A stretch of 45,091 nt of DNA. It comes from Geobacter sp. (GTDB taxonomy: Bacteria; Desulfobacterota; Desulfuromonadia; Geobacterales; Pseudopelobacteraceae). Made by a program: the position numbers and the translations under genes. Of the stretch, positions 7,092 through 21,096 are shown one piece after another. The first letter of the stretch is position 1. Each line of letters begins with the position of its first letter. Below the pieces are notes generated by a model, which saw only the letters and a list, made by a program, of their open reading frames with translations, was not told where the DNA came from and ran no database searches. Where the stretch lies: assembly GCA_025360785.1 (NCBI GenBank), contig JANYBN010000089.1, positions 1 to 45,091 on the forward strand, in the 5' to 3' direction.

Positions 7092-7949
7092 TCAGAACTC
7101 CACAAAAACAGAGACCCCGCCGCCATAATCCGGGCTGCCGTTGCTGAATCCCTTGAGGGCGTAAACATCGGTATAAGTTCGCTCTCCAAAACGCCACACC
7201 ATTTTCAGTCGAGCCTCAAGCGGCGCCGACAGGCCGTCAAACAGAGGAGTGCCATAACGGGCATACGCCGAGGTCACTAAACGCTCACCCCAACTGTAGG
7301 CCACACCGGTATCGGCAGTTACAAAATTCTTCGCCCCGATTACATCGTTATCTGCTCCCTGGACGATATAGCGCCCCTCGGCAAACGGCTGCCAGTTGCC
7401 CAGCCACTTGGAAACGGCCAATCCGCCGCCGAAGTCGAACTTTCCCGTGCCGAGCCCCTTGCTATCGTCGGCAGTCGGAAATTTTAAATATAGCGTCGGC
7501 CGCAGCAGCGGGGATGTGTCGCTGTCCATCAAAACAGAATAACCGCCGGTCAGTGTGATATCACCCAAACCATAGTCACCGCCAAACATTCCGCCCCCTC
7601 CACTTCCGCCCCCTCCACTTCCGCCACCCATCATGGAACCGCTGGCCACGCTCTTGGCAGTAACGGTTGCTCCAGTGCCGAGCACCGCATGTCCGGTACC
7701 GGTTGTGCGTTGATACAGGAAGGGCACGATCAGTTCCAGGTTGATTTTCCCGGTGGGAAACCAATCGATGAAAAGCGGTGCGGTAACGAAGGTGCTGGCG
7801 GATCCTGCACCGAATGTACCGTTGGATACTTCCAGGCCGAGCCCGAGCGCATATTTCGGTGCAGATGATTCGGCGGATTCTGCGCATGACAAGTGGGAGT
7901 TCAACAATAAGGTTACAATCGAGAAAATGGTAAAAAACAGTGTGCGCAT
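7092..7949 (-). CDS. Exported outer-membrane beta-barrel protein with a natural Gly4Ser linker
   Basis: 285 residues with an N-terminal signal peptide (hydrophobic 4-17, likely cleavage after SCA near residue 23). The mature part has alternating-hydrophobic strands such as APLFIDWFPTGKINLELIVPFLYQRTT, ALGLGLEVSNGTFG and SVLMDSDTSPLLRPTLYLKFPT. It ends in FVEF, the aromatic end typical of outer-membrane barrels. The style resembles the family annotated as MetA-pathway-of-phenol-degradation/transporter barrels, but no substrate can be named. A loop near residues 108-124 is almost pure glycine with two GGGGS-type units, encoded by a 15-bp tandem repeat. It is 12 nt downstream of the OB-fold-like gene, probably the same transcript. 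Confidence 0.72.
   Translation of the reverse strand: MRTLFFTIFSIVTLLLNSHLSCAESAESSAPKYALGLGLEVSNGTFGAGSASTFVTAPLFIDWFPTGKINLELIVPFLYQRTTGTGHAVLGTGATVTAKSVASGSMMGGGSGGGGSGGGGMFGGDYGLGDITLTGGYSVLMDSDTSPLLRPTLYLKFPTADDSKGLGTGKFDFGGGLAVSKWLGNWQPFAEGRYIVQGADNDVIGAKNFVTADTGVAYSWGERLVTSAYARYGTPLFDGLSAPLEARLKMVWRFGERTYTDVYALKGFSNGSPDYGGGVSVFVEF
7591..7620. repeat. Tandem 15-bp repeat encoding Gly-Ser linker
   Basis: Two perfect copies of CCGCCCCCTCCACTT (7591-7605 and 7606-7620), followed by a partial third copy. They encode the GGGGS-like stretch in the outer-membrane protein. The repeat is in frame, so copy-number change would lengthen or shorten a surface or periplasmic loop without breaking the gene. 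Confidence 0.8.
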
Positions 7950-7961
7950 TATTAATCCTTA

Positions 7962-8486
7962 TTATCGTCCCATTCTGCCGCCACCCATTCTTCCGGGCGA
8001 TTGACGCATCTGGGCGGGTCGGTTATTCATCCGGCCGGAGCCGTTCCCCATGCCGCTACCTGCCCAGGCAGGGCGGCCTGATTCGTTACGCAGAGAAACA
8101 GAGGCATTTATTGAAGTGTCGGTAATTTTTTGTGCCAGGACATATACGACTCCGTCCTTGCCCTGTGCCTTTGAGCCACGAACAGTGATGTCATCTCCGG
8201 CTTTAAGCGCGATGCCATGTTCAGCCCAGTAACGTTGCGGACCAAGAACTACAACAGCATGTACTCCGTTATTTTCCAGTTCCAACTGGGCGTTGCGGTG
8301 ATCATCACCAATTTGCACCGACATAATACGCCCCGCCATTGTTGTAACGGTGTTGGCATCATAACCGGTTTCGAGATTCAAACCACTCTGCCTGTCGCCG
8401 TCGCCCCCCTGGAAAGCGTGAGCCACAACCGGGGATGACATCAAGAGCACTGCGATCAGATATATAGTGAATTTTGTCGAATACAT
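7962..8486 (-). CDS. Exported small protein, OB-fold-like domain with Arg/Gly-rich tail
   Basis: 174 residues. The start has GGAG 7 nt before the ATG. The signal peptide covers residues 1-25 (KFTIYLIAVLLMSSPVVAHA). The central part (about 45-130) alternates short strands and turns (TMAGRIMSVQIGDD, QLELENNGVHAVVVLGP, LKAGDDITVRGS, VVYVLAQKI), which resembles periplasmic OB-fold proteins such as the YdeI/YgiW type; this is a fold-level inference only. The C-terminal 35 residues are rich in Gly, Arg, Met and Asn (GMGNGSGRMNNRPAQMRQ). It lies between two other exported genes downstream of the kinase/regulator pair and may be part of their regulon. I do not recognise a named family. Confidence 0.68.
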   Translation of the reverse strand: MYSTKFTIYLIAVLLMSSPVVAHAFQGGDGDRQSGLNLETGYDANTVTTMAGRIMSVQIGDDHRNAQLELENNGVHAVVVLGPQRYWAEHGIALKAGDDITVRGSKAQGKDGVVYVLAQKITDTSINASVSLRNESGRPAWAGSGMGNGSGRMNNRPAQMRQSPGRMGGGRMGR

Positions 8487-8547: not shown

Positions 8548-8871
8548 TTACTGTGCAACCGGTGCGGTCGGAGCCGTCGGCGCTGTTGTACCGGTCATAC
8601 GACTTCCATCCTGCATTCCGTTACCCTTGCCGGGGCGGGTTGTGCCGCCGTTGGCTGTGGTGCCGGTGGTCATGAAGGTGCCGTCATGTCGCTGTGACCC
8701 GGCCGGCCTGGTCATTGCGCCTGCTATGCCTGTCTGTGTGCAGGTACCGTTACGCATCCCCTGCCCCTTCGATCCGCCACCGCCGTTACCACCGCGAGCC
8801 GAGGCCTCGCCTGCAAGTGCCATCGCGCATACTGCTGCCAGTCCCATTACCATCATCTGTTTCGTTTTCAT
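8548..8871 (-). CDS. Small exported Gly/Thr-rich protein of unknown function
   Basis: 107 residues from the ATG at 8871, chosen because AGGAGG lies 8 nt upstream and a normal signal peptide (KQMMVMGLAAVCAMALAGEASA) follows. The longer frame to 8988 adds an unlikely Asn/Cys-rich leader. The mature part is low complexity: a GGNGGGGSKGQGMRNGT block, repeated TTG/TGTT motifs, and a TAPTAPTAP tail ending in VAQ. Only one cysteine (NGTCTQ) remains after cleavage. It is first of three exported genes and sits directly downstream of the sensor kinase/sigma-54 activator genes, with enhancer-like repeats between. Function unknown. Confidence 0.62.
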   Translation of the reverse strand: MKTKQMMVMGLAAVCAMALAGEASARGGNGGGGSKGQGMRNGTCTQTGIAGAMTRPAGSQRHDGTFMTTGTTANGGTTRPGKGNGMQDGSRMTGTTAPTAPTAPVAQ

Positions 8872-8917: not shown

Positions 8918-8933
8918 CCACGAGACGTGCCAA
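8918..8933 (-). promoter_or_regulatory. Possible sigma-54 (-24/-12) promoter for the exported-protein genes
   Basis: The minus strand carries TTGGCACG (8933-8926), identical to the sigma-54 -24 consensus core. After 4 nt comes GTGGA, where TTGCA is expected, so the -12 GC dinucleotide is replaced by GG. It would place the transcript start about 35 nt before the ATG at 8871. Support comes from the upstream TGCAC repeats and the adjacent gene for a sigma-54 activator; the weak -12 keeps confidence low. Confidence 0.35.
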
Positions 8934-8974: not shown

Positions 8975-9043
8975 TTTTTGCACCGCAACTACTGATTCAA
9001 GAAAACCGGTGCAAATTCTGCACCGGCGGGATAGATTTTGCAC
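8975..9043. promoter_or_regulatory. Cluster of TGCAC half-sites with a perfect palindrome (candidate enhancer sites)
   Basis: On the + strand CCGGTGCA (9006-9013), five bases, then TGCACCGG (9019-9026) form a perfect 8-bp-arm palindrome. Two more half-sites with the same T-run context flank it: TTTTTGCACCG (8975-8985) and TTTTGCAC (9037-9043). They lie 40-110 bp upstream of the -24-like element, the usual distance for NtrC-type activators. On the minus strand the palindrome is followed by TTTTCTT, so it may also act as the terminator of the regulator gene. Confidence 0.5.
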
Positions 9044-9051
9044 GTCGACTA

Positions 9052-10413
9052 TTAAACATCCTCTGCGCCAGCCATTCCATACTCCTTCAATCGATACTGC
9101 AGCGTGCGGCGCGAGATGCCGAGCCGTTCCGCAGCCAATCTGCGGTTGCCGGCAGTTGATTTAAGTGCCGCAGCAATCGCATCACGTTCAGCCTCCTTCA
9201 AAATACCGCCATCTTCGCGCGGCCCGCCATCCTGAAGCGAGCGGATGTTTTCCGGCAGCTCCGCAGGGGTCACCTCACCACGCGCCAGGATAACCGCCCT
9301 TTCGATGACGTTCTGCAGCTCACGGATATTGCCGGGCCAACTGTAGGAGCGAAGCGCTTTCATTGCGGGTGCGGCAATACCCGTCAGTTTCTTGCCCATG
9401 GCGCGGGCATGCATGCGCACAAAAAAACCGGCAAGAGCGTCCAGGGCATCTCTGCGGTCACGTAGCGTCGGAAGCGTGACCGGAAACACATTCAAACGAT
9501 AGTAAAGATCTTCACGGAAGCGGCCGGCTGCCGATTCTTTGGCCAGATCCCGGTTGGTTGCGGCCACTACCCGCACATCGGCGCGCAACTCCTTGTTGCC
9601 GCCGACCCGCTGAAAGCTCCGCTCCTGCAGAACTCTCAGCAGCTTGGCCTGCATCGCCAGCGGCATCTCGCCGATCTCGTCCAGCATGATGGTCCCGCCG
9701 GCTGCCATTTCAAAGCGACCCTGGCGGGCCGCAGAAGCTCCGGTAAAGGCGCCGCGCTCATGACCGAACAGTTCGCTTTCAAGCAGGTTCTCAGGAATGG
9801 CAGCGCAATTTACCGCGACAAAAGGGCCGGACTTGCGCGGGCTGGTTAGGTGGATATATCGGGCAAACAGTTCCTTGCCGGTCCCGCTTTCGCCGCCAAT
9901 CAACACCGTCGCCTCGGTCGCCGCGACCTCCCCCGCCAGGCGGCGGGCATCCTGCATGGCCGTACCAGCGAACAGGATATCGAGCGGCGGCAGCCCGGCC
10001 AATTCGCTTTCATCAGGAGCGCCCTGCCTCCGCTCGCTGCGGTGCAGCTCCAGAAGTCGATCAACCAGAGCCCTGAGGCTGGCCGGGTCTTTGAGCGGCT
10101 TGGTCAGAAAATCACTCACCCCTTCTTTGATGGCCGCGACCGCTTCTTCAATCGTGCCAAAGGCGGTCAGCAGAACAAACGGTGGCGGCATAGCAATGGC
10201 GCGGCTGGCACGGAACAGCTCGACGCCCCCCATTTTCGGCATCTTGAGATCCGACAGAACCAGGTCAAACGCCGACTTTTTCAGAAGCACCAATCCGGCA
10301 GCGCCATCAGCCGCCTGGGTCACCTCATGACCGGCGTCCTCAAGAATGGCAGCCAGCAGGCCGCGAAACGTAGCGTCATCTTCTACAATCAATATCCGTC
10401 CGGCATTTTTCAT
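9052..10413 (-). CDS. Sigma-54-dependent response regulator (NtrC family)
   Basis: 453 residues in three domains. The receiver (1-125) has acidic EDD at 11-13, phosphorylation site Asp55 in VLSDLKMPK and Lys105 in LTKP. The AAA+ domain (about 145-385) has Walker A GESGTGKE (174-181), the sigma-54 contact loop GAFTGA (221-226), Walker B TIMLDEIGEM (241-250) and the FREDLYYRLNVFPV segment. The C-terminal Fis-type helix-turn-helix (about 415-450) contains GNRRLAAERLGISRRTLQYRL. It would activate sigma-54 promoters when phosphorylated by the kinase encoded just upstream (4-nt overlap). Gene order resembles ZraSR/HydHG systems, which respond to metal or envelope stress. Inferred target: the exported genes downstream. 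Confidence 0.95.
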   Translation of the reverse strand: MKNAGRILIVEDDATFRGLLAAILEDAGHEVTQAADGAAGLVLLKKSAFDLVLSDLKMPKMGGVELFRASRAIAMPPPFVLLTAFGTIEEAVAAIKEGVSDFLTKPLKDPASLRALVDRLLELHRSERRQGAPDESELAGLPPLDILFAGTAMQDARRLAGEVAATEATVLIGGESGTGKELFARYIHLTSPRKSGPFVAVNCAAIPENLLESELFGHERGAFTGASAARQGRFEMAAGGTIMLDEIGEMPLAMQAKLLRVLQERSFQRVGGNKELRADVRVVAATNRDLAKESAAGRFREDLYYRLNVFPVTLPTLRDRRDALDALAGFFVRMHARAMGKKLTGIAAPAMKALRSYSWPGNIRELQNVIERAVILARGEVTPAELPENIRSLQDGGPREDGGILKEAERDAIAAALKSTAGNRRLAAERLGISRRTLQYRLKEYGMAGAEDV

Positions 10414-11660
10414 ACTGAACCCTCATGCTGTGCTGCAGGCAATTTCACTATGAAGAGCGCCCCGCCACCCGGCGCATCTTCCGCAGTGATGCTCCCGCCG
10501 CAGCCATCGACAATTTTTTTACACACCGCGAGTCCCAGGCCTGCGCCCCTTGCTTTGCTGGTTCGAAACGGTTCGAATAATCCTGAGCGCATCTCCGCCT
10601 CGATTCCTGAACCGTCGTCCATTACCGATATTTCAACCACATTTCCATCCGCACCGGCTTTCAATGTGACATTCCCACCCTCAGGCATTGCCTGAACAGC
10701 ATTGGTGAGCAGATTAAGCAGCAGTCGCTGCAGCCCCTCTTCCGGGCAGTTCACCCTCACCTGTTTCCCGACTTCAACGACCATCCTGATCCCCGCCGCA
10801 TCCAACTGGGGAGTCAACAGGGTGGTCAACTGTCCGGCGACAGAGTACAGACTGCACGCCTGCGCAGACCCGGCATCGGTACGGGTGAAGAAAAGAATAT
10901 CATCGGCAAGCTTCTCCAGACGGAGAGATTCACGGACTATCAGCTGTGCGTAGCCACGTTCCCGCCCCTCAGGAAGGCGTTCTTCAAGAAGCTGCCCATA
11001 CCCCTTGATTCCTGCCAGAGGATTGCGCACTTCATGGGCCAGCACCGCCCCGACCTCACCCAGACGGGCAAGTTCATGCTGACGTGCCAGAAGTTTTTCC
11101 TGGGCATCCTGCCGACGCAACAGCCAGAAGACCGCTATCCCCAACCCCCACCCCAGCGCCAGCAGTGAAAATATCAGGGTAATGCCAAAACGCGCCCGGC
11201 GCATAACCTCTTCAGAACGCCAGGTATGCAGCGCAAGACGCAGCACACAGGCTTTTCCGGACAGATGAAACGGCGCCTGGAACTCGTAGACATACTCCCC
11301 AGTACCAAGCTGAATCCGCGCTTCACCAAGATTACCGGTTGTCAGGACACTCCGGTAGCGGCTGTCTTCGACGTCATTACCGGTCAGGTCGGGATTAGTG
11401 TGAAAGAGAATCTTTCCGGATGAGGAGATAAGCATGGCATAGGCGATTTCTCTAGCCTGAAATGAAGCCAGTGATTCAAGGGAGGGGTCGCGACCAGCCA
11501 CCCCCTCCATAGCGGATGCTATGGTCAGTGCCAGGCCGCGCAAGCTGTCATCTGCAATAGGCGCGGCGGAGCGATAGTTGCGTATGGCAAACCAGGAGAG
11601 CCCGGCGGTAAGCGAGACCGACAGAACAAGTATCAATATGGCAATGCTGCGGCGCGTCAT
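10410..11660 (-). CDS. Membrane sensor histidine kinase (ZraS/AtoS-like)
   Basis: 416 residues. TM1 is at about 6-26 and TM2 about 158-181, enclosing a periplasmic sensor region of roughly 130 residues. That region contains a PAS/Cache-like stretch AMLISSSGKILFHTNPDLTGNDV. The HisKA domain has the phosphorylated His209 in VLAHEVRNPLAGIKGYGQLL. The ATPase domain has the N box LLLNLLTNAVQAMPEGG, G1 VMDDGSGIEAE and G2 RGAGLGLAVCKKIVDGCGG. It overlaps the response regulator by 4 nt and starts 3 nt after the CDF exporter stop, linking sensing to metal transport. Likely the partner of the downstream regulator; the stimulus is not visible. Confidence 0.94.
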   Translation of the reverse strand: MTRRSIAILILVLSVSLTAGLSWFAIRNYRSAAPIADDSLRGLALTIASAMEGVAGRDPSLESLASFQAREIAYAMLISSSGKILFHTNPDLTGNDVEDSRYRSVLTTGNLGEARIQLGTGEYVYEFQAPFHLSGKACVLRLALHTWRSEEVMRRARFGITLIFSLLALGWGLGIAVFWLLRRQDAQEKLLARQHELARLGEVGAVLAHEVRNPLAGIKGYGQLLEERLPEGRERGYAQLIVRESLRLEKLADDILFFTRTDAGSAQACSLYSVAGQLTTLLTPQLDAAGIRMVVEVGKQVRVNCPEEGLQRLLLNLLTNAVQAMPEGGNVTLKAGADGNVVEISVMDDGSGIEAEMRSGLFEPFRTSKARGAGLGLAVCKKIVDGCGGSITAEDAPGGGALFIVKLPAAQHEGSV

Positions 11661-11663
11661 CGA

Positions 11664-12596
11664 TCAGTCATGCCCGTGCCCGCTGCAGGCGGATTGCCGT
11701 TCGGTATGGCTCAAATCCTTGAAAAGCGGGCCGCCGCTGCAGGCAGAGCAGTCAAACTGTATCGTGGTATGGGAAATATGAAATTTGTGCTGCAGTTCAT
11801 GCTCTATTTCGTGCAGCAGCTGACTGCGCAAGCCGTCATAGGCCGGTTCAATTTCAACATGGGCAGACAGAGCCAGAATATGTGAGCAGACAGACCAGAG
11901 GTTGAGGTGGTGGACATCCAGCACACCTTCGATTCCCCGGATATTCTCCGCCACCTGCTCGACAGACATGCCGCGCGGCACACCTTCCATCAGGATATGG
12001 GTGGCCTCCCGCAACACCCGCCAGGCGCCGGTCAGAATCATGAGGCCAATGGCGATGGAAATGATCGGATCCGCCTGATACCAACCGGTGAAGCGCATCA
12101 GCAGCGCCCCGACAATCACCCCCACCGAGGCGGCCGCATCCCCCAATACATGCAGAAAAGCACTTCTAACGTTCAGGTCGTCGTGGGAATGTCCATGCAG
12201 CCCCTTGGCCGCCAGCAGATTGGCAATCAGCCCCAGCACGGCGATGACAAGCATCGGAGTCGTCTGCACCGATTCAGGAGAAGCCAGTCGTTTGCTTCCC
12301 TCATAGAGTATGCCGACCGCCATCAGAAAGACCGTCAGACCGTTGATCAACGACGCCAGCACCTCGGCCCGATGCCAGCCATAAGAATGCTGTTCGCCGG
12401 GCGGCTGGGCGGCAAGCTTGATTGCCCCCAGCGAAAGGATCAGTGCGAACAGATCCAGAAAAACGTGCCCCGCGTCTGACAAAAGCGCCAGGGAATTTGA
12501 CCAGACACCGCCGATGATCTCCGCCACCAGAGTGAAGGCGGTGAGGATGATGGCGAACATAAGACGTCTGGATATGTTCACGTCGATGTACGTCAT
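11664..12596 (-). CDS. Cation diffusion facilitator (CzcD/ZitB-like zinc-type exporter)
   Basis: 310 residues from the ATG at 12596, which overlaps the upstream stop as ATGA; a longer frame to 12791 lies inside the previous gene. Six transmembrane segments are predicted. The metal site has the HxxxD pair in TM2 (His44, Asp48 in LSDAGHVFLDL) and in TM5 (His149, Asp153 in FLHVLGDAA), the HD-HD set of Zn/Cd/Co exporters such as CzcD. A short His loop (GLHGHSHDD, 132-140) lies between TM4 and TM5. The cytoplasmic C-terminal domain (about 210-290) is present, followed by a Cys/His-rich tail (FDCSACSGG...SACSGHGHD). It exports divalent metal from the cytosol using the proton gradient (family knowledge). 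Confidence 0.93.
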   Translation of the reverse strand: MTYIDVNISRRLMFAIILTAFTLVAEIIGGVWSNSLALLSDAGHVFLDLFALILSLGAIKLAAQPPGEQHSYGWHRAEVLASLINGLTVFLMAVGILYEGSKRLASPESVQTTPMLVIAVLGLIANLLAAKGLHGHSHDDLNVRSAFLHVLGDAAASVGVIVGALLMRFTGWYQADPIISIAIGLMILTGAWRVLREATHILMEGVPRGMSVEQVAENIRGIEGVLDVHHLNLWSVCSHILALSAHVEIEPAYDGLRSQLLHEIEHELQHKFHISHTTIQFDCSACSGGPLFKDLSHTERQSACSGHGHD

Positions 12597-13246
12597 GGCG
12601 TTTCCGTCCGGCTGGCGCTGCAGTTGCAGCTGCATGAACAGTTCATTCCCCTCGCCTTGCCGAAAGCCTCGCGACCTTCCCGGAATGTCAGCCATGAGAT
12701 CAGGATGGCGCCAAGCGCATCCAGGCTGCCGATGCCGGTCAGTGCATAGCCGATGCTGGAGAGCATCAGGACCGCCGAGAGAGAGAGGCACGCTTTGGAA
12801 CAGGCCGCATCCGCCAGGATGGCGGGCGAGTTGAGCGCGGTACCGACCTTGATCTTATGGTGGATCAAATACCACATGAAGGAGATTGACAGCAGCGAGA
12901 TGACGATGCCCCAGAAGGTCGTTTCCGGTTTGTGCTGCTGGTACAGGTTCAGCCCGGCCGTCAGCAGCAGTCCGACCGACAGGGTGTAGAACGCAGCGCC
13001 GGTAATCCTGAGTGCCCGCTGTTCGAATTCGTCGCGGGTCTCTCCCTCATTTGCCTTAATCCTGCGCAGCATATGCCAGACGCCGATCGCCGAAATAACC
13101 TCGATAAAGGAGTCCACACCGAAACCGAATAACGCCAGGGTTTCATCGGCTGCTCCCAGCCAAACAGAGGCGCCACCCTCAACCAGATTGTAGAATATTG
13201 TGAACAGCGCCAGGTAATTTGCACGCTTGTAAAGTTTTTCATTCAT
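12593..13246 (-). CDS. Short CDF-like membrane protein with Cys-rich tail
   Basis: 217 residues with about six hydrophobic segments. It looks like the membrane half of a CDF transporter with no cytoplasmic C-terminal domain. The TM2 equivalent has ALFGFGVDSFIEVISA (Asp45 and Glu49, where canonical CDFs have H/DxxxD). The TM5 equivalent has ILADAACSKACLSLS, where the usual HxxxD is DAACS, so the metal site is changed. The C-terminus carries NCSCSCNCS, four cysteines in seven residues that could bind soft metals. It overlaps the methyltransferase gene (ATGA) and the full CDF gene (ATGA), so stoichiometric expression with a normal CDF is likely. It may be an independent transporter or a partner subunit. 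Confidence 0.75.
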   Translation of the reverse strand: MNEKLYKRANYLALFTIFYNLVEGGASVWLGAADETLALFGFGVDSFIEVISAIGVWHMLRRIKANEGETRDEFEQRALRITGAAFYTLSVGLLLTAGLNLYQQHKPETTFWGIVISLLSISFMWYLIHHKIKVGTALNSPAILADAACSKACLSLSAVLMLSSIGYALTGIGSLDALGAILISWLTFREGREAFGKARGMNCSCSCNCSASRTETP

Positions 13247-13863
13247 GTCAGCACATTCTCTCTAGGCGGATCAAACTTTTTGACCCCCAAAATCTGGACA
13301 ACCGATGCCACTCCGGTATGGTTGCTCCCTTCCCGCACATCCCGTTCCCGCTGAACCGCGTGGATGAACTCCAAACCTTTCAACTCCTGCATCAGCTCAT
13401 CCAACGACAAGAGCATATCGGGAGATTGGGGGCCGCCGGTACCATAGGAGAGCTGTTCCTTGCTGAACGCCTCCAGTACAAAAACGCCCCCCGGCTTCAG
13501 ACCCCATACTGCAGCCTGATGGAGCGGAATGCGGATTGCTGAAGGCACATGGCAATAACAGGCGATGACCCCTTCCCACTGTTGCGGCTCAATTTTGAAC
13601 TCGCTCAAATCAGCATGAACCGTAGTTATAATTCTACCACGTTCGGTAGCCAACTCAACAGCCTTACGTAAGCCTACCGCCGAGCCGTCAACCCCGGTAA
13701 CATCATACCCGAGTCCTGCCAGATAGACGGCATTTCTCCCTTCGCCCTCCGCCAGCGAAAGAATCTTTCCTTGCGGAATCCTGTCCACTACGGATTCGAG
13801 ATACTCATTCGGCGCGGTGCCGTAAACGAAACCCGGTTCTCTGTAACGCTCATCCCAATTCAT
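13243..13863 (-). CDS. SAM-dependent methyltransferase (TehB-like class I)
   Basis: 206 residues, a Rossmann-fold methyltransferase. Motif I is ILSLAEGEGRNAVYLAGLG (34-52), with the GEGRN turn seen in TehB/thiopurine-type small-molecule methyltransferases. Motif II has the acidic residue in VTGVDGS (Asp59). Later blocks are WEGVIACYCHVPS and LKPGGVFVLEAFSKEQ. The N-terminus MNWDERYREPGFVYGTAPNEYL matches small cytosolic members that act on tellurite, selenite or thiols. It is embedded between ABC exporter genes (14-nt overlap) and CDF exporter genes (4-nt overlap), so detoxifying methylation of a metalloid or thiol compound before export is a reasonable inference, not proven. Confidence 0.85.
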   Translation of the reverse strand: MNWDERYREPGFVYGTAPNEYLESVVDRIPQGKILSLAEGEGRNAVYLAGLGYDVTGVDGSAVGLRKAVELATERGRIITTVHADLSEFKIEPQQWEGVIACYCHVPSAIRIPLHQAAVWGLKPGGVFVLEAFSKEQLSYGTGGPQSPDMLLSLDELMQELKGLEFIHAVQRERDVREGSNHTGVASVVQILGVKKFDPPRENVLT

Positions 13864-14572
13864 GGTTTACGCTCCCGCCACTATTATTTTTCTCGCCGGT
13901 AATCCGGCCGTCATCGACATGAAAGATCCGGTCAAAACCCTCCACCATGCGGTGATCATGGGTAACCACCAGAATAGCGGAATGGTTTTCCAGCGCCAGC
14001 TTTTTCAGGAGGATCATGACATTTTTGCCATTTTCGGTATCGAGCGCCGCCGTCGGCTCATCGGCCAGAATCACCTTCGGCTTGTTGGCCAGAGCCCTGG
14101 CAATTGCTACTCGCTGGGCCTCACCGCCGGACAGGGCAGAAGGAAAGTTATTCAACCGGTGTCCGAGGTTGAGGGCGCCAAGAAGTTCCGTCGCCCGGCT
14201 TTTGGCCTCGCTCCGCGACAAATGGTTGATCTCCAGAGCGATCATGACATTTTCCAGAGCGGTCAGAAACGGGATGAGATTGTGGGCCTGAAAGATGAAC
14301 CCGAGCTTTTCGCGGCGCAGCCGTTTCAGGTCAATGCCGGGCAGCCACCCTCCATCGGCAACGGTGGCGCCGTCGATGACGACCTTACCGTGCGTCGGCT
14401 CGTTAATCAGGCCGATGGCGGTCAACAGGGTAGTCTTCCCCGACCCTGAAGGGCCGAGGATCGCGACCAGTTCCCCCGGTTTGATCTGAAAGGTTGCGTC
14501 CGCAATGGCGGTCACCGCCGTCTCGCCTTTACCATATACCTTTGTCAGTTTTTCAATTTCAATAGCGTACAT
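13850..14572 (-). CDS. ABC exporter ATPase (DevA/MacB/LolD type)
   Basis: 240 residues, a full nucleotide-binding domain: Walker A GPSGSGKTT (40-48), signature LSGGEAQRVAIARAL (147-161), Walker B VILADEPTAALD (167-178) and H-loop VVTHDHR. The sequence class matches ATPases of type VII ABC systems (MacB, LolCDE, DevBCA), which pair with a permease having a large periplasmic domain. It begins 2 nt after the permease gene and overlaps the methyltransferase gene by 14 nt. Confidence 0.93.
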   Translation of the reverse strand: MYAIEIEKLTKVYGKGETAVTAIADATFQIKPGELVAILGPSGSGKTTLLTAIGLINEPTHGKVVIDGATVADGGWLPGIDLKRLRREKLGFIFQAHNLIPFLTALENVMIALEINHLSRSEAKSRATELLGALNLGHRLNNFPSALSGGEAQRVAIARALANKPKVILADEPTAALDTENGKNVMILLKKLALENHSAILVVTHDHRMVEGFDRIFHVDDGRITGEKNNSGGSVNHELG

Positions 14573-14574
14573 GT

Positions 14575-15777
14575 TCAGCCACCCAACGCTTCTGCGGGCT
14601 CGACCTTCAGAGCCTTTCGAATACCGACGAAGCTTGATATTATGCAGATGGCAACCACAATAACAAACAGCGCCTGCAGGTCGAAGGCATCGAGGACGAT
14701 CCGGCGGGGAAATTTTTCATAGGTCATCAGGATCAGGAGATACCCGATGCCGTAGGCGATTACGCCCATAAGCAGAGACTGCTGGAGGATCATGCCGACG
14801 ATGACCCGGTTCTGAGAGCCGATCAGCTTAAGGGTGGCGATCACCTTGATCTTGTCGAGGGTCGAGGTATAGATGATCAGCGCAATGATGACCGCCGAAA
14901 TCACCAGCAAAATGGCCCTGAACAGCCCCAGCTGCATTCGCGCCTTCTCGATCATCCCCTTGGTCAGAATCTTCGTCTGTTCCTCGACAGAAATCGGGCG
15001 GAAATGGTTCCAGCGGCTGATCCGCTCCTGCACCTCTTGCAGATTCGCCCCCGGTGCCAGGCGGGCTACGACGGTGTTTACCGTATGGGTCGATTCCGTG
15101 ATGCCGGCGATGTTCTGTTTCAGGTATTTTGTCTGGGCAGGAGCAAGGGCCTGAATGGCGCCCAGATTTTCTCCGATCCGCTCCCGATCGTTCCTGATGG
15201 CGGAGTTGTCTTTCTTGAACTGGATGTCCTGGGCGTCGGCAAGTGTCACATACGCAGCCGGGTCGCCGCCGGACGACACCACCTTCCCGGTGATCCCGAC
15301 AACGGTGTAATCGTGGAGACCCAGGCGGATTTTCTCGCCGATTGCCATCTTCATCGCCTTGGCAGCCACCATTTCGTAATGTTTCTGTCGAACACCTCGA
15401 CCGGCGACTATCTCCGGCGGGCCGCCGAAACCGTTCAGGTCATAGCCGATCAGAAAGAAACGGAACGGCTTCCCCGACCTGTCAATCTGGATGGTCTGGA
15501 ACGAGAGCGGGGATGCTTCCGCTACACCGGGAACCGCCTTGATACGGTACTTGATGTCCTCCGGAATGCGCGAACTCTCGGCAAACGGGCCGTTGGTATT
15601 CTGCTGCACCACCCAGATATCAGCCCTGGTGCTGTCAATCACCGCCAGAGCGTCGGCAAACAGCCCCCGGTAAATTCCTCCCATACTCATCACGACCCCG
15701 AGAAGCAGCCCCAGGCCGATAGAAGTCAGGATAAACCTACCACGGTGATAGCGTATGTCCCTGATGGCGAGATTCAT
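14575..15777 (-). CDS. ABC exporter permease (DevC-like, FtsX/MacB fold)
   Basis: 400 residues: a cytosolic N-terminal helix and TM1 (FILTSIGLGLLLGVVMSMGG, about 14-33), then a large periplasmic domain (about 40-275). Three C-terminal TMs follow (AILLVISAVIIALIIY; GMILQQSLLMGVIAYGIGYLLILM; LFVIVVAICIISSFVGI), and it ends KALKVEPAEALGG as in FtsX/MacB-like permeases. With the adjacent membrane-fusion protein and TolC-type channel it forms a predicted DevBCA-TolC tripartite exporter moving substrates from the periplasm or inner membrane outward. It overlaps the MFP gene by 4 nt. Confidence 0.9.
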   Translation of the reverse strand: MNLAIRDIRYHRGRFILTSIGLGLLLGVVMSMGGIYRGLFADALAVIDSTRADIWVVQQNTNGPFAESSRIPEDIKYRIKAVPGVAEASPLSFQTIQIDRSGKPFRFFLIGYDLNGFGGPPEIVAGRGVRQKHYEMVAAKAMKMAIGEKIRLGLHDYTVVGITGKVVSSGGDPAAYVTLADAQDIQFKKDNSAIRNDRERIGENLGAIQALAPAQTKYLKQNIAGITESTHTVNTVVARLAPGANLQEVQERISRWNHFRPISVEEQTKILTKGMIEKARMQLGLFRAILLVISAVIIALIIYTSTLDKIKVIATLKLIGSQNRVIVGMILQQSLLMGVIAYGIGYLLILMTYEKFPRRIVLDAFDLQALFVIVVAICIISSFVGIRKALKVEPAEALGG

Positions 15778-16946
15778 CGCGTAACCCGGACCTTCATGCC
15801 GTCTTTGAACGTGGCGGTTGCCGTAGCAGGCGCCGCTACGACCTGCTCACCTCCACTGAGGCCGGACACTATTTCGGAAAAGTTGCTCCGATCCTCAATG
15901 CCGACGGTCACCGGCTTAAATATAAGTTTGCCGTTCGCCGCGACCCAGACCCCGCGAACTTTTTCCTTCATGACGATAACGGCTGACGGTAGTGACAGAG
16001 CGCCGCTTTTTGTTTCGGTAACGATGTACACATCTGACTGTTCTCCAAGACGGAAGTTCTGTTGCGGCTCGCTGAAAGCAACATCCACCTCCAGCTCCTC
16101 GGTTACCCGGTCGCTCTGCCGGCCCAGACGTGCGACGTGGCCGGCAACCTGCTCACCACCGGAAGAGCGGAGCGTGATCATCGCTTTCTTGCCAACATTC
16201 ACACCCTTGAGCTGCGCTTCGTCCACGTTGGCCTTGACCCAGACGGTAAGGGGGTCGGCCAGGGTGAAGATCGACATCCCCGGCGTAACCGTCGCCCCCT
16301 TTTCCAGGTCACGGCTGATGACGACACCATCCTCCGGGGCGTAGATCAGAGTGTCGGTGACTCTGCTTTTGGCAAAGCCGAGACCGGCCTTACCCGCCTG
16401 CTGTTCCATCTTCACCGCGTCAAACGCGGCCTGGCTTCGGGCGACCTCTTCCCCGGCAACCTGACGGGAGGTGTCGTACTGTTCCGCCTCCAGCTTGGAT
16501 ACCAGGTTCTTCTCGGCCAACGTTTTGAAGCGCCGGGCGTTTTTTTCCGCCAGAGCCAGGTTCACCCTGGCCTTCTGCAGAGTGGCCTGCTCAACATTCA
16601 GACTTGCGGCTGACCTGTTCAGTCCCGCTTCGGACTGCAGCTTCTGCTGGATGACATCATCATTCTCCAGCCTGGCAAGAAGCTGGCCACGTTTCACCCG
16701 GTCACCCTGATCGGCGTACAGCGCCACAATTCTGCCGGTAATCTTGCTGGAGACGCCGACGACGACCTTCGCCTCGACCGTACCGTTGCCATAGACCTGG
16801 GAGACAAGGTTGCGCTTCTCAACAGTCACGACCTTGACCCTGGGCGGGGCAAGGAGCGTCATCTTGATCACAATAGCGCCAGCCACAATAGCCACAGGCC
16901 AGATAAGATATGTTTTCTTCTTTACCACGGTTTTTAACAGATCCAT
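15774..16946 (-). CDS. Periplasmic membrane-fusion protein (HlyD/DevB-like adaptor)
   Basis: 390 residues. A single N-terminal membrane anchor (YLIWPVAIVAGAIVIKMTLL, about 13-32) is followed by the split lipoyl/barrel-sandwich domain (VVGVSSKITGRIVALYADQGDRVKRGQLLARL). A coiled-coil hairpin (about 95-175) rich in Ala, Glu, Lys and Gln contains the ARRFKTLAEKNLVSK tip region typical of adaptors that dock to TolC. The second lipoyl half (LIYAPEDGVVISRDLEKGATVTPG) and beta-barrel domains come next. It bridges the inner-membrane ABC permease and the outer-membrane channel. It lies 17 nt after the TolC gene. Confidence 0.92.
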   Translation of the reverse strand: MDLLKTVVKKKTYLIWPVAIVAGAIVIKMTLLAPPRVKVVTVEKRNLVSQVYGNGTVEAKVVVGVSSKITGRIVALYADQGDRVKRGQLLARLENDDVIQQKLQSEAGLNRSAASLNVEQATLQKARVNLALAEKNARRFKTLAEKNLVSKLEAEQYDTSRQVAGEEVARSQAAFDAVKMEQQAGKAGLGFAKSRVTDTLIYAPEDGVVISRDLEKGATVTPGMSIFTLADPLTVWVKANVDEAQLKGVNVGKKAMITLRSSGGEQVAGHVARLGRQSDRVTEELEVDVAFSEPQQNFRLGEQSDVYIVTETKSGALSLPSAVIVMKEKVRGVWVAANGKLIFKPVTVGIEDRSNFSEIVSGLSGGEQVVAAPATATATFKDGMKVRVTR

Positions 16947-16963
16947 TCATCACTCCTTAACAT

Positions 16964-18232
16964 CTACTGTTCACTCCTGCCAACTGCCCGGTCAAGCCGT
17001 GCCAAGGCGGTGTAATAATCGTACCCAGCCTGGATATGCGCCGTCCGGGCATCGAGCGCCTGGGTTTGTGCATCGGTAACTTCTATAATGGTGCCGACCC
17101 CTTCATGATAGCGCCCCTCTGCCAGCTCCTTGCTTTCACCGGCCGCAGCAACCTCTTTGTCAGTCGAAGCCTTACGGGCGGACGCCTCGTTGACGCCAAG
17201 CCAGGCAAATTCAACCTCTTTGCCGATCTGCAGCCTTACATTGCCCTGCCGGGCCTCGATGGCATTGATCGCTGCCGTGGCTTCCCTTACCTGTTCAACC
17301 GAGGAAAAGCCGGAAAAAAGCGGTATTGTCAGGTTCAGCCCCACGCCCCAGACGTTGCCGACAGGCGGGAAGTCCTGATCGGCATAGCCGACGTTAGCCG
17401 TTCCAGAGAGGATCGGCAGATAACTTCCCCTGGCCGTTTTCAGACTGGCGGATGCCGAAGATTTAAGTGCGGCCAACTGCTGCAGCTCGGCGCGATTGCG
17501 CAGAGCCTCCTGCTGAGCAAGATTCCGATCCGGCAGAATCACAGCCAGAGCGACGGGTTCAACCGGAAAGCGATCACCCAGCGAGGCGATCCCCATGGCG
17601 TTGGCAAGTTCGAGCCGGGCGATGTCACGACTGTTCTCCGCACGGATCAGCGCGGTTTTAGCCGTGAACAAATTAGCTTCGGCCCTCGCTGCGTCCACCT
17701 TTGCCCTGATTCCCTGACTGAAGAACTCCTGCGCCTGACGGAGTACCGCCGCACGGGCCTGAACAGTTTCCGCAACGGCAACAACCTGTTTTTCGGTTGC
17801 AAAGAACAGATAGAAGGCGCTCCTGACCCGCAAAGCCAAATCCTGCCAGATTACGGCAAGGGACTGGTCGGAGGCTTCGCGATTGCTCCGGGATGCATCC
17901 ACAACCCCGGAGGTGCGACCGAAGTCATAGATCGTCTGCTTCAGATAAAGGACGGCGCTGCCGGATTCCGTAGTCTTTATGCTTTCCTGGGCCGCAATGA
18001 ATGAGCGCCCCCTGTTCCAGTCGGCGGCAAAGTTGATTTGCGGGTAATAATTTGCAAGGGCCTGGCCGATACGTGCCTCGGCACCGTGAAGATTCTCCCT
18101 GGCCTCAATCACCTGGGGGTGGTTTTTCAATGCGGATGCCAGCGCCTCGTCAAGAGTCAAAGGAGCCGCAGCGTAAAGCGTCCGGGCAGATAGTATTAAT
18201 ACAATCACGTAGAATATGAGCTGTTTTATCAT
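16964..18232 (-). CDS. TolC-family outer-membrane efflux protein
   Basis: 422 residues with a signal peptide (1-21, IFYVIVLILSARTLYAAAP). There are two internally similar halves of long helices (ALKNHPQVIEARENLHGAEARIGQALANYYPQ; AQQEALRNRAELQQLAALKSS) and two beta-strand pairs (LYLKQTIYDFGRT; VGLNLTIPLFSGF), the normal OEP layout. The final block GYDYYTALARLDRAVG is typical of the family. It is the first gene of the nine-gene efflux run and carries the operator-like palindrome 30 nt upstream of its start. It forms the outer-membrane duct for the ABC exporter. Confidence 0.92.
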   Translation of the reverse strand: MIKQLIFYVIVLILSARTLYAAAPLTLDEALASALKNHPQVIEARENLHGAEARIGQALANYYPQINFAADWNRGRSFIAAQESIKTTESGSAVLYLKQTIYDFGRTSGVVDASRSNREASDQSLAVIWQDLALRVRSAFYLFFATEKQVVAVAETVQARAAVLRQAQEFFSQGIRAKVDAARAEANLFTAKTALIRAENSRDIARLELANAMGIASLGDRFPVEPVALAVILPDRNLAQQEALRNRAELQQLAALKSSASASLKTARGSYLPILSGTANVGYADQDFPPVGNVWGVGLNLTIPLFSGFSSVEQVREATAAINAIEARQGNVRLQIGKEVEFAWLGVNEASARKASTDKEVAAAGESKELAEGRYHEGVGTIIEVTDAQTQALDARTAHIQAGYDYYTALARLDRAVGRSEQ

Positions 18233-18262: not shown

Positions 18263-18285
18263 ATGTGACTAGATATTCACATATG
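18263..18285. promoter_or_regulatory. Operator-like palindrome upstream of the efflux operon
   Basis: ATGTGA (18263-18268), 8 nt, TCACAT (18277-18282) form a perfect inverted repeat in the 65-nt gap between the tetR stop and the tolC-like start. The 20 bases at 18266-18285 match 14 of 20 bases at 18912-18931 in the tetR promoter, including ATATTCA. This suggests one TetR protein binds both sites. Confidence 0.6.
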
Positions 18286-18297
18286 AGGCAAAAAAAA

Positions 18298-18888
18298 TCA
18301 GCTAATCAGAACAAGAAAATTACTCCAGAGCTTCCCGGCTTCGACATTAATGTCGCAGGTCAAGCCGCCGATTGTGTGACGCAGCGCAACAAACTGTATC
18401 ATCCCCAGCATGGTCAGGGCTGTCTCCCGAGGCAGGATCTCCTGTTTCAGCGCCCCTTCCTGGACACCTGCGGCGATCACACCCGAGATCGTTTCGACAT
18501 AATTGCCGATGCGCATTACCAGGTTTTTCGCCAGATCCGGATGGCCGAGATGTACATCTTCGGAGAAGATAAACCTCGGAACACCCGGATGTTCGGCAAT
18601 GATTGCTATATGGGAGAAATAAATGGTCTCCAGCTTTTCCAACGGCCTGCGACTGCCGGCAGCGATTGTCGCTGCCTTGCCCATGACCGAGCTGCCGATA
18701 AAATCCGACAACGCAGAAAAAATCTCGCTCTTGCCGCTGAAATGCCGATAGATATTGGCTTCGCTCATACCGGCAGAATCGGCAATAGCGGCAATCGTGA
18801 GGGCGCGCACCCCTTTTGTTCCGACAACAGCAAGGGCCGCCTGAACAATCTCTTCCTTCCGGACGCGGGTGCTTTTCTTTTCTAACAT
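18298..18888 (-). CDS. TetR/AcrR-family transcriptional repressor
   Basis: 196 residues from the ATG at 18888, chosen for the GAGGTG just upstream and because the conserved domain begins at once (LEKKSTRVRKEEIVQAALAVV). The N-terminal helix-turn-helix lies at about 29-50 (LTIAAIADSAGMSEANIYRHFSGKSEIF). The C-terminal half is an all-helical ligand/dimer domain with no recognised ligand. It lies upstream of and on the same strand as the tripartite efflux genes; such regulators normally repress the linked exporter until an inducer binds. Shared operator-like motifs at its own and the exporter promoters support autoregulation. Confidence 0.92.
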   Translation of the reverse strand: MLEKKSTRVRKEEIVQAALAVVGTKGVRALTIAAIADSAGMSEANIYRHFSGKSEIFSALSDFIGSSVMGKAATIAAGSRRPLEKLETIYFSHIAIIAEHPGVPRFIFSEDVHLGHPDLAKNLVMRIGNYVETISGVIAAGVQEGALKQEILPRETALTMLGMIQFVALRHTIGGLTCDINVEAGKLWSNFLVLIS

Positions 18889-18911
18889 TATCACCTCATG
18901 CGAATACATAC

Positions 18912-18944
18912 TCACAAAATATTCATGTTTGCATATGTTGTCAA
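18912..18944 (-). promoter_or_regulatory. tetR promoter with overlapping operator-like motif
   Basis: Minus strand: TTGACA (18944-18939), 17-nt spacer, TATTTT (18921-18916), a good sigma-70 type promoter about 30 nt before the tetR ATG. The -10 lies inside the 20-base motif (18912-18931) shared with the exporter promoter, so a bound repressor would block RNA polymerase. Confidence 0.65.
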
Positions 18945-19220: not shown

Positions 19221-19733
19221 ATTTTACCGTCCAGCCCCCTTCAAAAACCCACCCTGCACCGCAGCCACGAATACTGGATGCGCCGCGCCATCGCCGAGGC
19301 GGGCAAAGCGCAGGCCAAGAATGAGGTGCCGATCGGCTGCGTTATCGTGCAGGGCGGCAGAATCATCGCCCGCGGCCATAACCTGCGCGAAACGTCGCAG
19401 GATCCAGCGGGTCATGCCGAGTTGATCGCCATCAGAAAAGCCGCCCGGAAACTTGGTTCCTGGCGGCTCCTTGACACGGTCCTGTATGTTACCCTCGAAC
19501 CGTGTACGATGTGCATGGGGGCGATCATACTGGCCCGCATCCCCACCGTAGTCTTCAGCTGTTTTGACCCGAAGGGTGGAGCGGCCGGCTCTCTCTTTGA
19601 CCTGTCCAACGATCCGCGTCTCAATCACAGCGTTGAACTGCTGCCGCGAGTTCTCGAAAGCGAATGTTCCGGATTACTGAGTGACTTCTTTGCTGATCTG
19701 CGCAGACGCAAACGGGAAAACCGGACTATTTAA
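19221..19733 (+). CDS. tadA: tRNA-specific adenosine deaminase, probable non-AUG start
   Basis: Deaminates A34 to inosine in tRNA-Arg(ACG). The zinc/catalytic motifs are HAE (PAGHAELIA) and PCTMC (LEPCTMCMGAI), with NEVPIGCVIV and the FDPKGGAAGSL region also conserved. The first ATG in frame (19278) falls inside the conserved N-terminal motif SHEYWMRRA, so the true start must be upstream. The frame is open only back to a TAA at 19194 and contains no ATG, GTG or TTG. ATT at 19221 has AAAGGA with 7-nt spacing; CTG at 19254 lacks a ribosome binding site. I therefore propose ATT, giving 170 residues; the ATG form would be 151 and lack conserved residues. It is the only + strand gene and converges on fdhD-mobA with an 8-nt overlap. 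Confidence 0.88.
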   Translation: MLPSSPLQKPTLHRSHEYWMRRAIAEAGKAQAKNEVPIGCVIVQGGRIIARGHNLRETSQDPAGHAELIAIRKAARKLGSWRLLDTVLYVTLEPCTMCMGAIILARIPTVVFSCFDPKGGAAGSLFDLSNDPRLNHSVELLPRVLESECSGLLSDFFADLRRRKRENRTI

Positions 19734-21096
19734 TCCCTTCGTACTCTTCCGGCGTATTAACGTTAAAGAACGACGTTGTCCGGCCGCCGACACTCTGCAC
19801 CTCTTCAGCTGTTGCCTGTCGAATATTCATCCTCCCCAGAACATCAATAATCTTCCGCTCCCCCTGCAGGATCGCGTTTTCAAAAACATCTTTGCAGGCA
19901 GAAGCATAGACCGCATGCAGCGGCTCCAGCCCCCCCTTGCTGAGAGGCACCACGGCATCATAGTCACCGATTCGCATATCACAAAGATGGCGGATAATGG
20001 CCGGTTCGAGAAACGGCAGATCGCAGGCGGTTACAAACGTATGGGCTGTGCTGCTGTGAGTCAGGGCTGAGTGAAGGCCGGCAATTGATCCGAAGCCGGG
20101 ATAGATATCCGGAACCTTCCGGCAGGGGATAAAGTCGTAGTCGAGCGGTGAATTGGTGACGATGACGACTTCATGAAACAGACCGGCCAATGTCCGGTAG
20201 GTGCGGGTGATCATCGGGGTGCCGTCAACTTCCAGCAGCGCCTTGTTCCGCCCCATCCGGCTGGATGCGCCGCCGGCCAGTATTACTCCGGTAACACCTT
20301 CAATTTTGGGCTGTTCCGAAAACGCTTCGATACCTTCCGGGTGGCTGTAAACGTTAAACGATCCGCCCCTCACGTAGCCGACCAGGCATATTCCGGCCTG
20401 TTCGCACAGATTAATCGCCATGTCGGTGGGTGACGTACGTGAGGCGATCAGGCTGATCCCCATCAGAGCCGCTTTGACAACCATCTCGGTTGAGACCCTT
20501 CCTGACGTCACCAGCTCGGCCCCTGCCATGTCGATCCCTCTGAACAGAGCTTCACCGGCGATCCGGTCGAAGGTGTTGTGCCTGCCAAGATCTTCGGCAT
20601 ACAGAATCATTTTGCCGTCGCGGCCGATGGCAGCAGAGTGGATGCCGCCATGAGAGCGATACTGATCGGCTTTTTGGGTCAACTCATTCATAAGGGAGAA
20701 GATCTGCTGGGGTGATCGAGGCAGCAGCTGTGCCGGCGGAGCATTGTTTTCAGTGCTGGCCGTGGGAAGCGTAAAAGTGATGCCGGTGCCGCAACCGGAG
20801 GTTAACACAGGCTTCAGGCGTTCCGGCAGTTCTCCCTTGATCCTGACGTTGGCAGCGCCGAACTCTTCGCAGACGCTGAACATCACGAAATCATCCAGAG
20901 ACGATACAAACCCCTGCAGCCGCAGAAAACCTGCGACCAGAAAACGCAGATCGTGTGGAGAACCGATCAGCGTCGCGATCTCCCGACCATTGACTATCAG
21001 CTGCAGCGGATACTCACTGACGACTGACGCAGATGTCGGTTCCAGAAACTCACCTCGCCATGTGAAATATGCATTGTTTTTGCTATCAGGTTTCAT
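19726..21096 (-). CDS. FdhD-MobA fusion (formate dehydrogenase sulfurtransferase plus molybdenum cofactor guanylyltransferase)
   Basis: 456 residues combining two cofactor-maturation enzymes. Residues 1-260 match FdhD, which hands sulfur to the Mo/W-bis-MGD cofactor of formate dehydrogenase. The active-site loop reads TSGCGTGI with Cys102, but the second cysteine of the common CxxC is a glycine. Other FdhD blocks are DLGRHNTFDRIAGEAL and TSGRVSTEMVVKAA. Residues 268-456 are MobA-like, with the nucleotide-binding LAGGASSRMGRNKALLEVDG (273-292), TACDLPFLEP and VVPLSKGGLEPLHAVY; it attaches GMP to molybdopterin. Upstream is lysC; no formate dehydrogenase genes are in the window. Confidence 0.92.
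   Translation of the reverse strand: MKPDSKNNAYFTWRGEFLEPTSASVVSEYPLQLIVNGREIATLIGSPHDLRFLVAGFLRLQGFVSSLDDFVMFSVCEEFGAANVRIKGELPERLKPVLTSGCGTGITFTLPTASTENNAPPAQLLPRSPQQIFSLMNELTQKADQYRSHGGIHSAAIGRDGKMILYAEDLGRHNTFDRIAGEALFRGIDMAGAELVTSGRVSTEMVVKAALMGISLIASRTSPTDMAINLCEQAGICLVGYVRGGSFNVYSHPEGIEAFSEQPKIEGVTGVILAGGASSRMGRNKALLEVDGTPMITRTYRTLAGLFHEVVIVTNSPLDYDFIPCRKVPDIYPGFGSIAGLHSALTHSSTAHTFVTACDLPFLEPAIIRHLCDMRIGDYDAVVPLSKGGLEPLHAVYASACKDVFENAILQGERKIIDVLGRMNIRQATAEEVQSVGGRTTSFFNVNTPEEYEGIK

Follow-up and report, generated by a model that had tools for sequence, protein, structure and literature searches.

We analyzed a 45,091-nucleotide contig of Geobacter sp. (JANYBN010000089.1, assembly GCA_025360785.1; this whole stretch is called the window below), in which nine minus-strand genes, read from 18232 to 9052, together with a preceding tetR gene appear to form a TetR-repressed operon for the efflux of a soft or transition metal or a metalloid. 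In this reading, to which we give a probability of about 0.55, the substrate would pass from the cytosol to the periplasm and then to the outside, as in the czc systems, except that a MacB-type ABC pump takes over from their RND pump. The run is read as czc-like, with the MacB-type pump replacing CzcA, because its gene layout, from channel, adaptor and pump through CDF and sensor/regulator to a periplasmic protein, repeats that of czcNICBADRSE. What the reading builds on is observed, namely the gene run, the linkage of its modules in relatives, conserved operators, a conserved sigma-54 element, the residues of one cation diffusion facilitator (CDF1) and the histidines of the sensor. That a CDF, a trans-envelope pump and a sensor make up a single stress-response design had been proposed from the sequence alone, and the genes indeed form a coherent metal-efflux layout.

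The direction of transport, the substrate, and the action of the CDFs and the pump in series are what the reading predicts. TetR, bound at two operators around its own gene, would hold down tetR-tolC-mfp-devC-devA-mt-cdf1-cdf2-hk-rr. After derepression, the CDFs would carry metal from the cytosol to the periplasm, with ligands suggesting a Zn/Cd-type ion for CDF2 and a softer, thiolate-liking ion for CDF1. Passage across the outer membrane would then fall to the MacB-type ABC pump together with the adaptor and TolC, acting on the species present in the periplasm or on its adduct with a thiol or organic compound. The sensor histidine kinase (HK) would sense periplasmic metal via three invariant histidines, and the NtrC-type response regulator (RR) would turn on three adjoining genes, SMP-OB8-OMP7, via a palindrome and a sigma-54 promoter.

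The gene run and its recurrence in relatives

The nine genes follow each other at intervals of 17, -4, 2, -14, -4, -4, 3 and -4 nt; no junction exceeds 17 nt, five are overlaps, and every junction from mfp to rr is either an overlap or a gap of 2-3 nt. The tetR gene (ATG at 18888) lies on the same strand, 65 nt upstream of tolC. The sequence-only reading, which had described an uninterrupted nine-gene run preceded by its own TetR gene, was thus right on coordinates, strand and spacing; it missed three further genes (SMP-OB8-OMP7), which extend the unit beyond 9052 to 7092. Pfam and NCBIfam assign the nine genes to a TolC channel, an adaptor, a MacB/FtsX permease, an ABC ATPase, an S-adenosylmethionine (SAM) methyltransferase (MT), two CDFs, a histidine kinase and an NtrC-type sigma-54 regulator. 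These assignments bear out the families named earlier, except that the TehB label given to the MT is weak, the DevC and DevA labels fall under their NCBIfam cut-offs, and CDF1 is without the ZT_dimer domain. No Rfam family was found in the window at the gathering threshold.

Recurrence was assessed in 147 genomes (the own genome, which is included in the pair counts, and relatives, almost all from a single order), in which we located CDF1, the DevC-like permease, the MT, OB8 and the predicted RR site described below. Expected pair counts assume random placement in 4 Mb genomes, and contig breaks conceal some true pairs. Five CDF1 fragment rows, 21 DevC rows at 40-48% identity (paralogues) and two DevC fragment rows were left out of the counts, and all 40 MT, 111 OB8 and 55 site rows were kept. 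CDF1 and DevC lie at most 10 kb apart in 12 genomes (0.32 pairs expected), out of 51 holding both. At the same distance, CDF1 is accompanied by the MT in 14 of 30 genomes (0.21 expected) and by the RR site in 10 of 30 (0.24 expected), DevC by the MT in 11 of 25 (0.17 expected) and by the RR site in 10 of 29 (0.19 expected), and the MT by the RR site in 9 of 18 (0.11 expected). Module pairs in 9-14 genomes, against 0.1-0.5 pairs expected, uphold the earlier view that the combination is not a chance assembly. Separation of the modules is nevertheless as common as linkage or commoner, since the linked shares of genomes holding both partners range from 9/18 down to 12/51.

CDF1, DevC, the MT and the RR site are all pairwise within 10 kb in three relatives (G081, G083 and G136); in G098 one pair slightly exceeds 10 kb, and in G025 the RR site is 11-13 kb from DevC and the MT. 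The exporter and MT are divergent from SMP-OB8-OMP7-HK-RR in G136 and G098, and collinear in G036 and G018 (exporter-MT-...-HK-RR-SMP-OB8-OMP7), while G021 and G011 carry a collinear CDF1-HK-RR-SMP. CDF1 directly precedes the MT in six genomes (G061, G077, G080, G087, G103 and G124), with 41-85 nt between the matches. Neighbourhood maps covered a subset of 108 CDF1 and 67 DevC places (the retrieved loci). The expectation that the same nine families would recur in the same order failed, as the exact order is absent from all mapped relatives. Since the modules recur linked but no mapped relative has the order, gene content is favoured and the order is local.

The cation diffusion facilitators, the exporter and the methyltransferase

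Both CDF-type proteins of the sequence-only reading do belong to the family, but one of them consists of the transmembrane domain only. CDF2 (11664..12596, minus strand) is a full-length ZitB-like protein with Pfam Cation_efflux (E 3e-48) and ZT_dimer domains (scanned as 11664-12605) and HxxxD motifs in transmembrane segments 2 and 5 (TM2 and TM5), as read from its translation; it remains under the ZitB equivalog cut-off (249/408 bits). CDF1 (12593..13246, minus strand; sequence alignment and Pfam) lacks the C-terminal ZT_dimer domain (Pfam) and any cytoplasmic domain, and its predicted model has the CDF transmembrane fold. Residues D45, E49, D146, C149 and C153 are invariant, and the protein ends in a Cys-rich, CSCSC-like tail. 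The CDF TM5 motif is HxxxD or DxxxD according to PMC1868760, which also names clusters without the motif. By alignment CDF1 has neither form, showing AxxxD in 30 of 30 aligned sequences with Ala142 where other CDFs carry His. A plain exchange of CxxxC for HxxxD was considered and rejected: the HxxxD aspartate is kept, the His position is Ala, and the cysteines follow 3 and 7 residues further on. Internal stops in CDF1 copies (possible selenocysteine) were likewise dismissed, with the stop lying beyond the Cys tail in five translated, otherwise whole copies (G085, G075, G072, G012 and G005), as was plasmid spread, for which one record with a 37% match was found among 72,556.

In the mapped relative loci, CDF1 often adjoins ArsR and SaoE-like genes. 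In five loci (L116, L118, L150, L151 and L160), the position directly before CDF1, where other loci carry the SaoE-like permease, is taken by a small (about 130 amino acids) membrane protein, which sits after ArsR in all of these except L118. Two genomes (L118 of G003, L147 and L148) contain a tandemly repeated unit of roughly 6.2 kb that encodes CDF1, an OmpR-type regulator and a kinase; it is flanked by a helix-turn-helix gene, and both CDF1 copies per genome score equally. In L129, L131 and L134, the surroundings of CDF1 include a LysR gene of the type associated with multihaem cytochromes and a gene cluster for a PhsA-like molybdopterin oxidoreductase, a neighbourhood that may name a respiratory substrate tied to CDF1. 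In G139 (L080), whose CDF1 copy was among those flagged for internal stops, CDF1 and DevC are in frame-broken pieces in the assembly. Geobacter sp. OR-1 has the CDF1-CDF2 part of the run.

The exporter begins with tolC (16964..18232, minus strand), coding for a TolC-family outer membrane channel (Pfam OEP in two stretches, E 3e-57), and mfp (15774..16946, minus strand), coding for a membrane fusion protein or periplasmic adaptor. The adaptor passes the NCBIfam RND_mfp model (146 bits, cut-off 94.9), matches the CzcB/NccB and MacA models under their cut-offs, and does not pass the DevB model. They are followed by a devC-like gene for a MacB/FtsX-type ABC permease (14575..15777, minus strand; Pfam MacB_PCD and FtsX) and a devA-like gene for an ABC ATPase of the DevA/LolD/MacB type (13850..14572, minus strand; Pfam ABC_tran, E 1e-34). 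A DevBCA exporter proper was rejected, with NCBIfam scores for DevA (226/295.8 bits), DevB (49/129) and DevC (47/290) all below cut-off. The MacAB-TolC structural class fits the exporter, since the MacB periplasmic core domain, the FtsX permease, an adaptor and TolC are all present. No RND gene was found among the genes scanned by Pfam, and the pump consists of the MacB_PCD/FtsX permease and the ABC_tran ATPase.

The MT (13243..13863, minus strand) is of the Slr1183 type; its residues 3-195 align full-length to the Slr1183 structures 2kw5 and 3mer (E 3e-64, PDB 2kw5), and a match at E 1e-50 exists in 36 of the 147 genomes, the own included. The sequence-only reading had taken it for a TehB-like enzyme modifying a metalloid or thiol. 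Pfam TehB does match it at 29.3 bits (cut-off 20.4), over residues 24-92 only and behind Methyltransf_25 (39 bits). The reading as a TehB tellurite methyltransferase was set aside, as the NCBIfam TehB models score 30, 29 and 36 bits against cut-offs of 219.5, 218 and 303. No ArsM model matched in the NCBIfam scan. Because the nearest match of the MT is Slr1183 rather than TehB, methylation of tellurite or another metalloid has no direct support.

Two layers of control

Genes 65-85% identical to tetR (18298..18888, minus strand; Pfam TetR_N, E 3e-13, and TetR_C_24) precede exporter genes in 24 mapped relative loci, i.e., those with a near-full-length tetR match among 60 relative regions. Two predicted operators, recognized by their conservation, flank tetR. 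Operator 1 (18899..18916, TGTGA-N8-TCGCA) abuts, sharing one base with it, the -10 of the region's best sigma-70-like promoter (TTGACA-17-TATTTT, 18944-18916, minus strand), and operator 2 (18264..18281), between tetR and tolC, overlaps the -35 of a second, weaker promoter-like site (18269-18241, minus strand). TGYGA-N8-TCRCA matches twice in the window against 0.18 expected from single-base shuffles, and a stricter form has a single match in the own genome, at the place of operator 1. A strict match stands beside tetR in 24/24 relative loci (on both sides in 11, upstream only in 11 and downstream only in 2). TetR would bind these operators and repress the run. Directly after the tetR stop there are eight T (TGATTTTTTTT, 18290-18297, minus strand), and TGATTTTT or longer is found at the tetR stop in 24/24 mapped relatives; before this T run, the terminator scan yielded only a weak five-pair hairpin. 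The T run perhaps hints at attenuation between tetR and the exporter.

The HK (10410..11660, minus strand; Pfam) has a periplasmic domain of about residues 25-159 with three histidines (87, 132 and 145), all of which are invariant, together with E52 and E122, in 34/34 sequences with the window included. The RR (9052..10413, minus strand) combines Pfam receiver, sigma-54 AAA+ and HTH_8 domains. Beyond its gene lie two elements recognized by conservation, the palindrome GTGCAGAATTTGCAC (9009..9023, read 9023-9009), which is the predicted RR binding site, and a sigma-54 (-24/-12) promoter-like site TTGGCACGTCTCGTG (8919..8933, minus strand), whose -12 element, TG then G, is atypical. SMP (8548..8871, minus strand) is small, starts with a signal-like N terminus and carries two conserved motifs, SQRxDGTF and TANG. 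OB8 (7962..8486, minus strand) also has a signal-like N terminus, and an OB-like fold is a guess; OMP7 (7092..7949, minus strand) is probably an outer-membrane protein. None of the three matches a Pfam family at E 0.1.

The joint pattern of palindrome and sigma-54 site has 55 matches in 43/147 genomes, compared with 2 for a reversed-pattern control. The own genome, in which rpoN is present, contains one site by the strict pattern, in the window, and four places by a looser one, three of them outside the window. Among 48 distinct sites from the retrieved loci, chosen partly for carrying the pattern, spacing is either long (103-106, 27 sites) or short (93-95, 21 sites), the two classes being one helical turn apart. 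An IHF-like site within one mismatch accompanies 27/48 sites (200 shuffles: mean 4.2, maximum 10), preferentially at position -28 where the spacing is long and at -18 where it is short. SMP and/or OB8 lies downstream at 39/48 sites, and a regulator gene ends at most 500 nt upstream at 22/27 long-spacing sites and lies downstream at 13/21 short-spacing sites. The conserved target of the two-component pair, as predicted from these sites, is SMP-OB8-OMP7 and not the exporter. The pair had been expected to sense and act within the response; it is present with a readable DNA site, but the window gives no sign of its action on the exporter. The suggested union of a TetR input and a two-component output also stands in that both coexist and both kinds of site are readable, while the single transcript across the run is probable. 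In 30 loci, SMP falls into two sequence types that match the two spacing classes, and the classes show opposite orders of SMP-OB8-OMP7 relative to HK-RR.

The RR palindrome is inside the terminator-like hairpin with the most pairs in the region (9027-9005). That it also terminates the upstream transcript is only a guess, because such hairpins are no commoner in the region than in shuffles (6 vs 9.8). Elsewhere in the window, the translation of an open frame at 19726-21096 (minus strand) reads as FdhD fused to a MobA-type nucleotidyltransferase.

Competing readings and comparison with known systems

Several points weigh against the metal-efflux reading. TetR-type repressors usually respond to organic ligands, and MacB-type pumps are not known to act on metals. 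The exporter permease is present in 64 genomes, only 12 of which (own included) carry CDF1 within 10 kb; since the other 52 do not, the pump can do without CDF1 and its ancestral role need not be metal. The MT, which would be an accessory, provides no link to metal. The RR site of the window stands only before SMP and not before the exporter, and no IHF-like site within one mismatch was found at it. Neither SMP nor OB8 lies downstream at 9/48 RR sites, among which one precedes the exporter tolC (G030), one tetR (G031) and one a hydrogenase gene (named by reading). Where the HK-RR-SMP module stands alone, in L199 and in loci of similar gene lengths, nearby genes read as cytochrome b, Rieske and multihaem genes, and these neighbours could indicate a redox signal.

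Some of these points would suit a set of independent adjacent units, i.e., a general exporter under TetR control that expels an organic or lipophilic toxicant, two CDFs serving metal, and a two-component module that answers envelope or redox stress. The ligand preference of TetR regulators and the 52/64 genomes with an unaccompanied permease favour this view, as do the many mapped loci where HK-RR-SMP-OB8-OMP7 is accompanied by neither the exporter nor CDF1. We consider it somewhat unlikely, however, since pairwise linkage is about 20-80 fold above expectation, in at least three families, all junctions from mfp to rr are overlaps or 2-3 nt gaps, and the RR element precedes the exporter cassette in two relatives (G030 and G031). 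The sequence-only reading had instead proposed a thiol-conjugate exporter for a metalloid (As, Sb, Se or Te), with the MT modifying the metalloid or a thiol carrier and the ABC pump expelling the conjugate. In G009, CDF1 and the exporter do share one run with ArsR, a SaoE-like permease, an ArsE-like thioredoxin and CcdA-like genes; the exporter without CDF1 keeps the same ars-like company in G032 and G035 (the latter without a mapped CcdA), the representative of the ArsR cluster (G029) has a CVC motif, and Acr3 is nearby in some loci. But ArsR, SaoE, ArsE and Acr3 genes are all absent from the nine-gene run, the MT is of the Slr1183 type with weak TehB matches and no ArsM model match, and the ZitB-like CDF2 is of the divalent cation type, which makes this proposal quite improbable. 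The metal-efflux reading also has a bolder form, which we think unlikely: CDF1 would found a Cys-ligand CDF branch exporting a soft ion (Cu(I), Hg(II), As(III) or similar) to the periplasm and handing it to a MacB-type ABC tripartite pump, which would do the outer-membrane step of RND in czc-/cus-like systems, with TetR gating the pump and a sigma-54 envelope module brought in through the His-based two-component sensor.

Each of the families is already known; the novelty of the run lies in how they are assembled, in the Cys-type CDF and in the two readable layers of control. No description of a Cys-tailed CDF, or of a gene cluster like this run, was found among the matches listed in the open-licence literature (titles and abstract openings). 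If the metal-efflux reading is true, an ATP-driven MacB-type machine can power trans-envelope metal efflux, as RND pumps do, and the czc-like gene order arose twice by convergent evolution. The run also provides a regulatory circuit that can be tested in relatives of Geobacter, which are central to the cycling of metals and metalloids. It comprises a TetR operator, and a code of palindrome and sigma-54 site that would predict the regulon of a two-component pair whose targets (SMP, OB8 and OMP7) match no Pfam family.

With MacAB-TolC and DevBCA-TolC, the run shares the MacB_PCD-FtsX permease, ABC ATPase, adaptor and TolC, but its ATPase and permease genes are separate, it has CDF and two-component neighbours, and its exporter is under the cut-offs of the MacA, MacB, DevA, DevB and DevC models. 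Among CDF transporters such as YiiP, ZitB and ZnT, the CDF fold of the CDF1 model and the TM2/TM5 HxxxD motifs and ZT_dimer domain of CDF2 are familiar, whereas CDF1 differs in its missing cytoplasmic domain, Ala142 for the TM5 His, C149, C153 and the CSCSC-like tail. ZraSR-ZraP is a sigma-54 zinc response, in which a kinase and an NtrC-type regulator drive the gene of a small periplasmic protein. Here, too, an HK and an NtrC-type RR lie upstream of a sigma-54-preceded small protein gene, and the ZraS and ZraR models match the conserved domains. Unlike in that system, SMP and OB8 have no Pfam family and the HK-RR pair is within an efflux run; the scores also stay far under the cut-offs of ZraS (159/479 bits) and ZraR (382/760 bits).

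The comparison with czcNICBADRSE of Cupriavidus metallidurans draws on PMC10127602 and PMC7912956. An outer-membrane channel, an adaptor, an inner-membrane pump, a CDF, and a kinase with its regulator occur together in one run in both cases. The present run differs in having a MacB-type permease and ATPase instead of the RND pump CzcA, a TetR repressor, an NtrC-type sigma-54 regulator, two CDFs (one with Cys) and an Slr1183-type MT inside; lacking an RND pump, it falls outside the Czc family. The zinc phenotype described in PMC7912956 involves a glycerol ABC system of the uptake type, not a pump of the kind encoded here. In czcNICBADRSE, czcE sits after the regulator genes, and CzcRS targets the flanking czcN and czcP rather than the core promoter (PMC10127602, PMC7912956). 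The predicted targets of the regulator pair described here are likewise flanking genes and not the core promoter.

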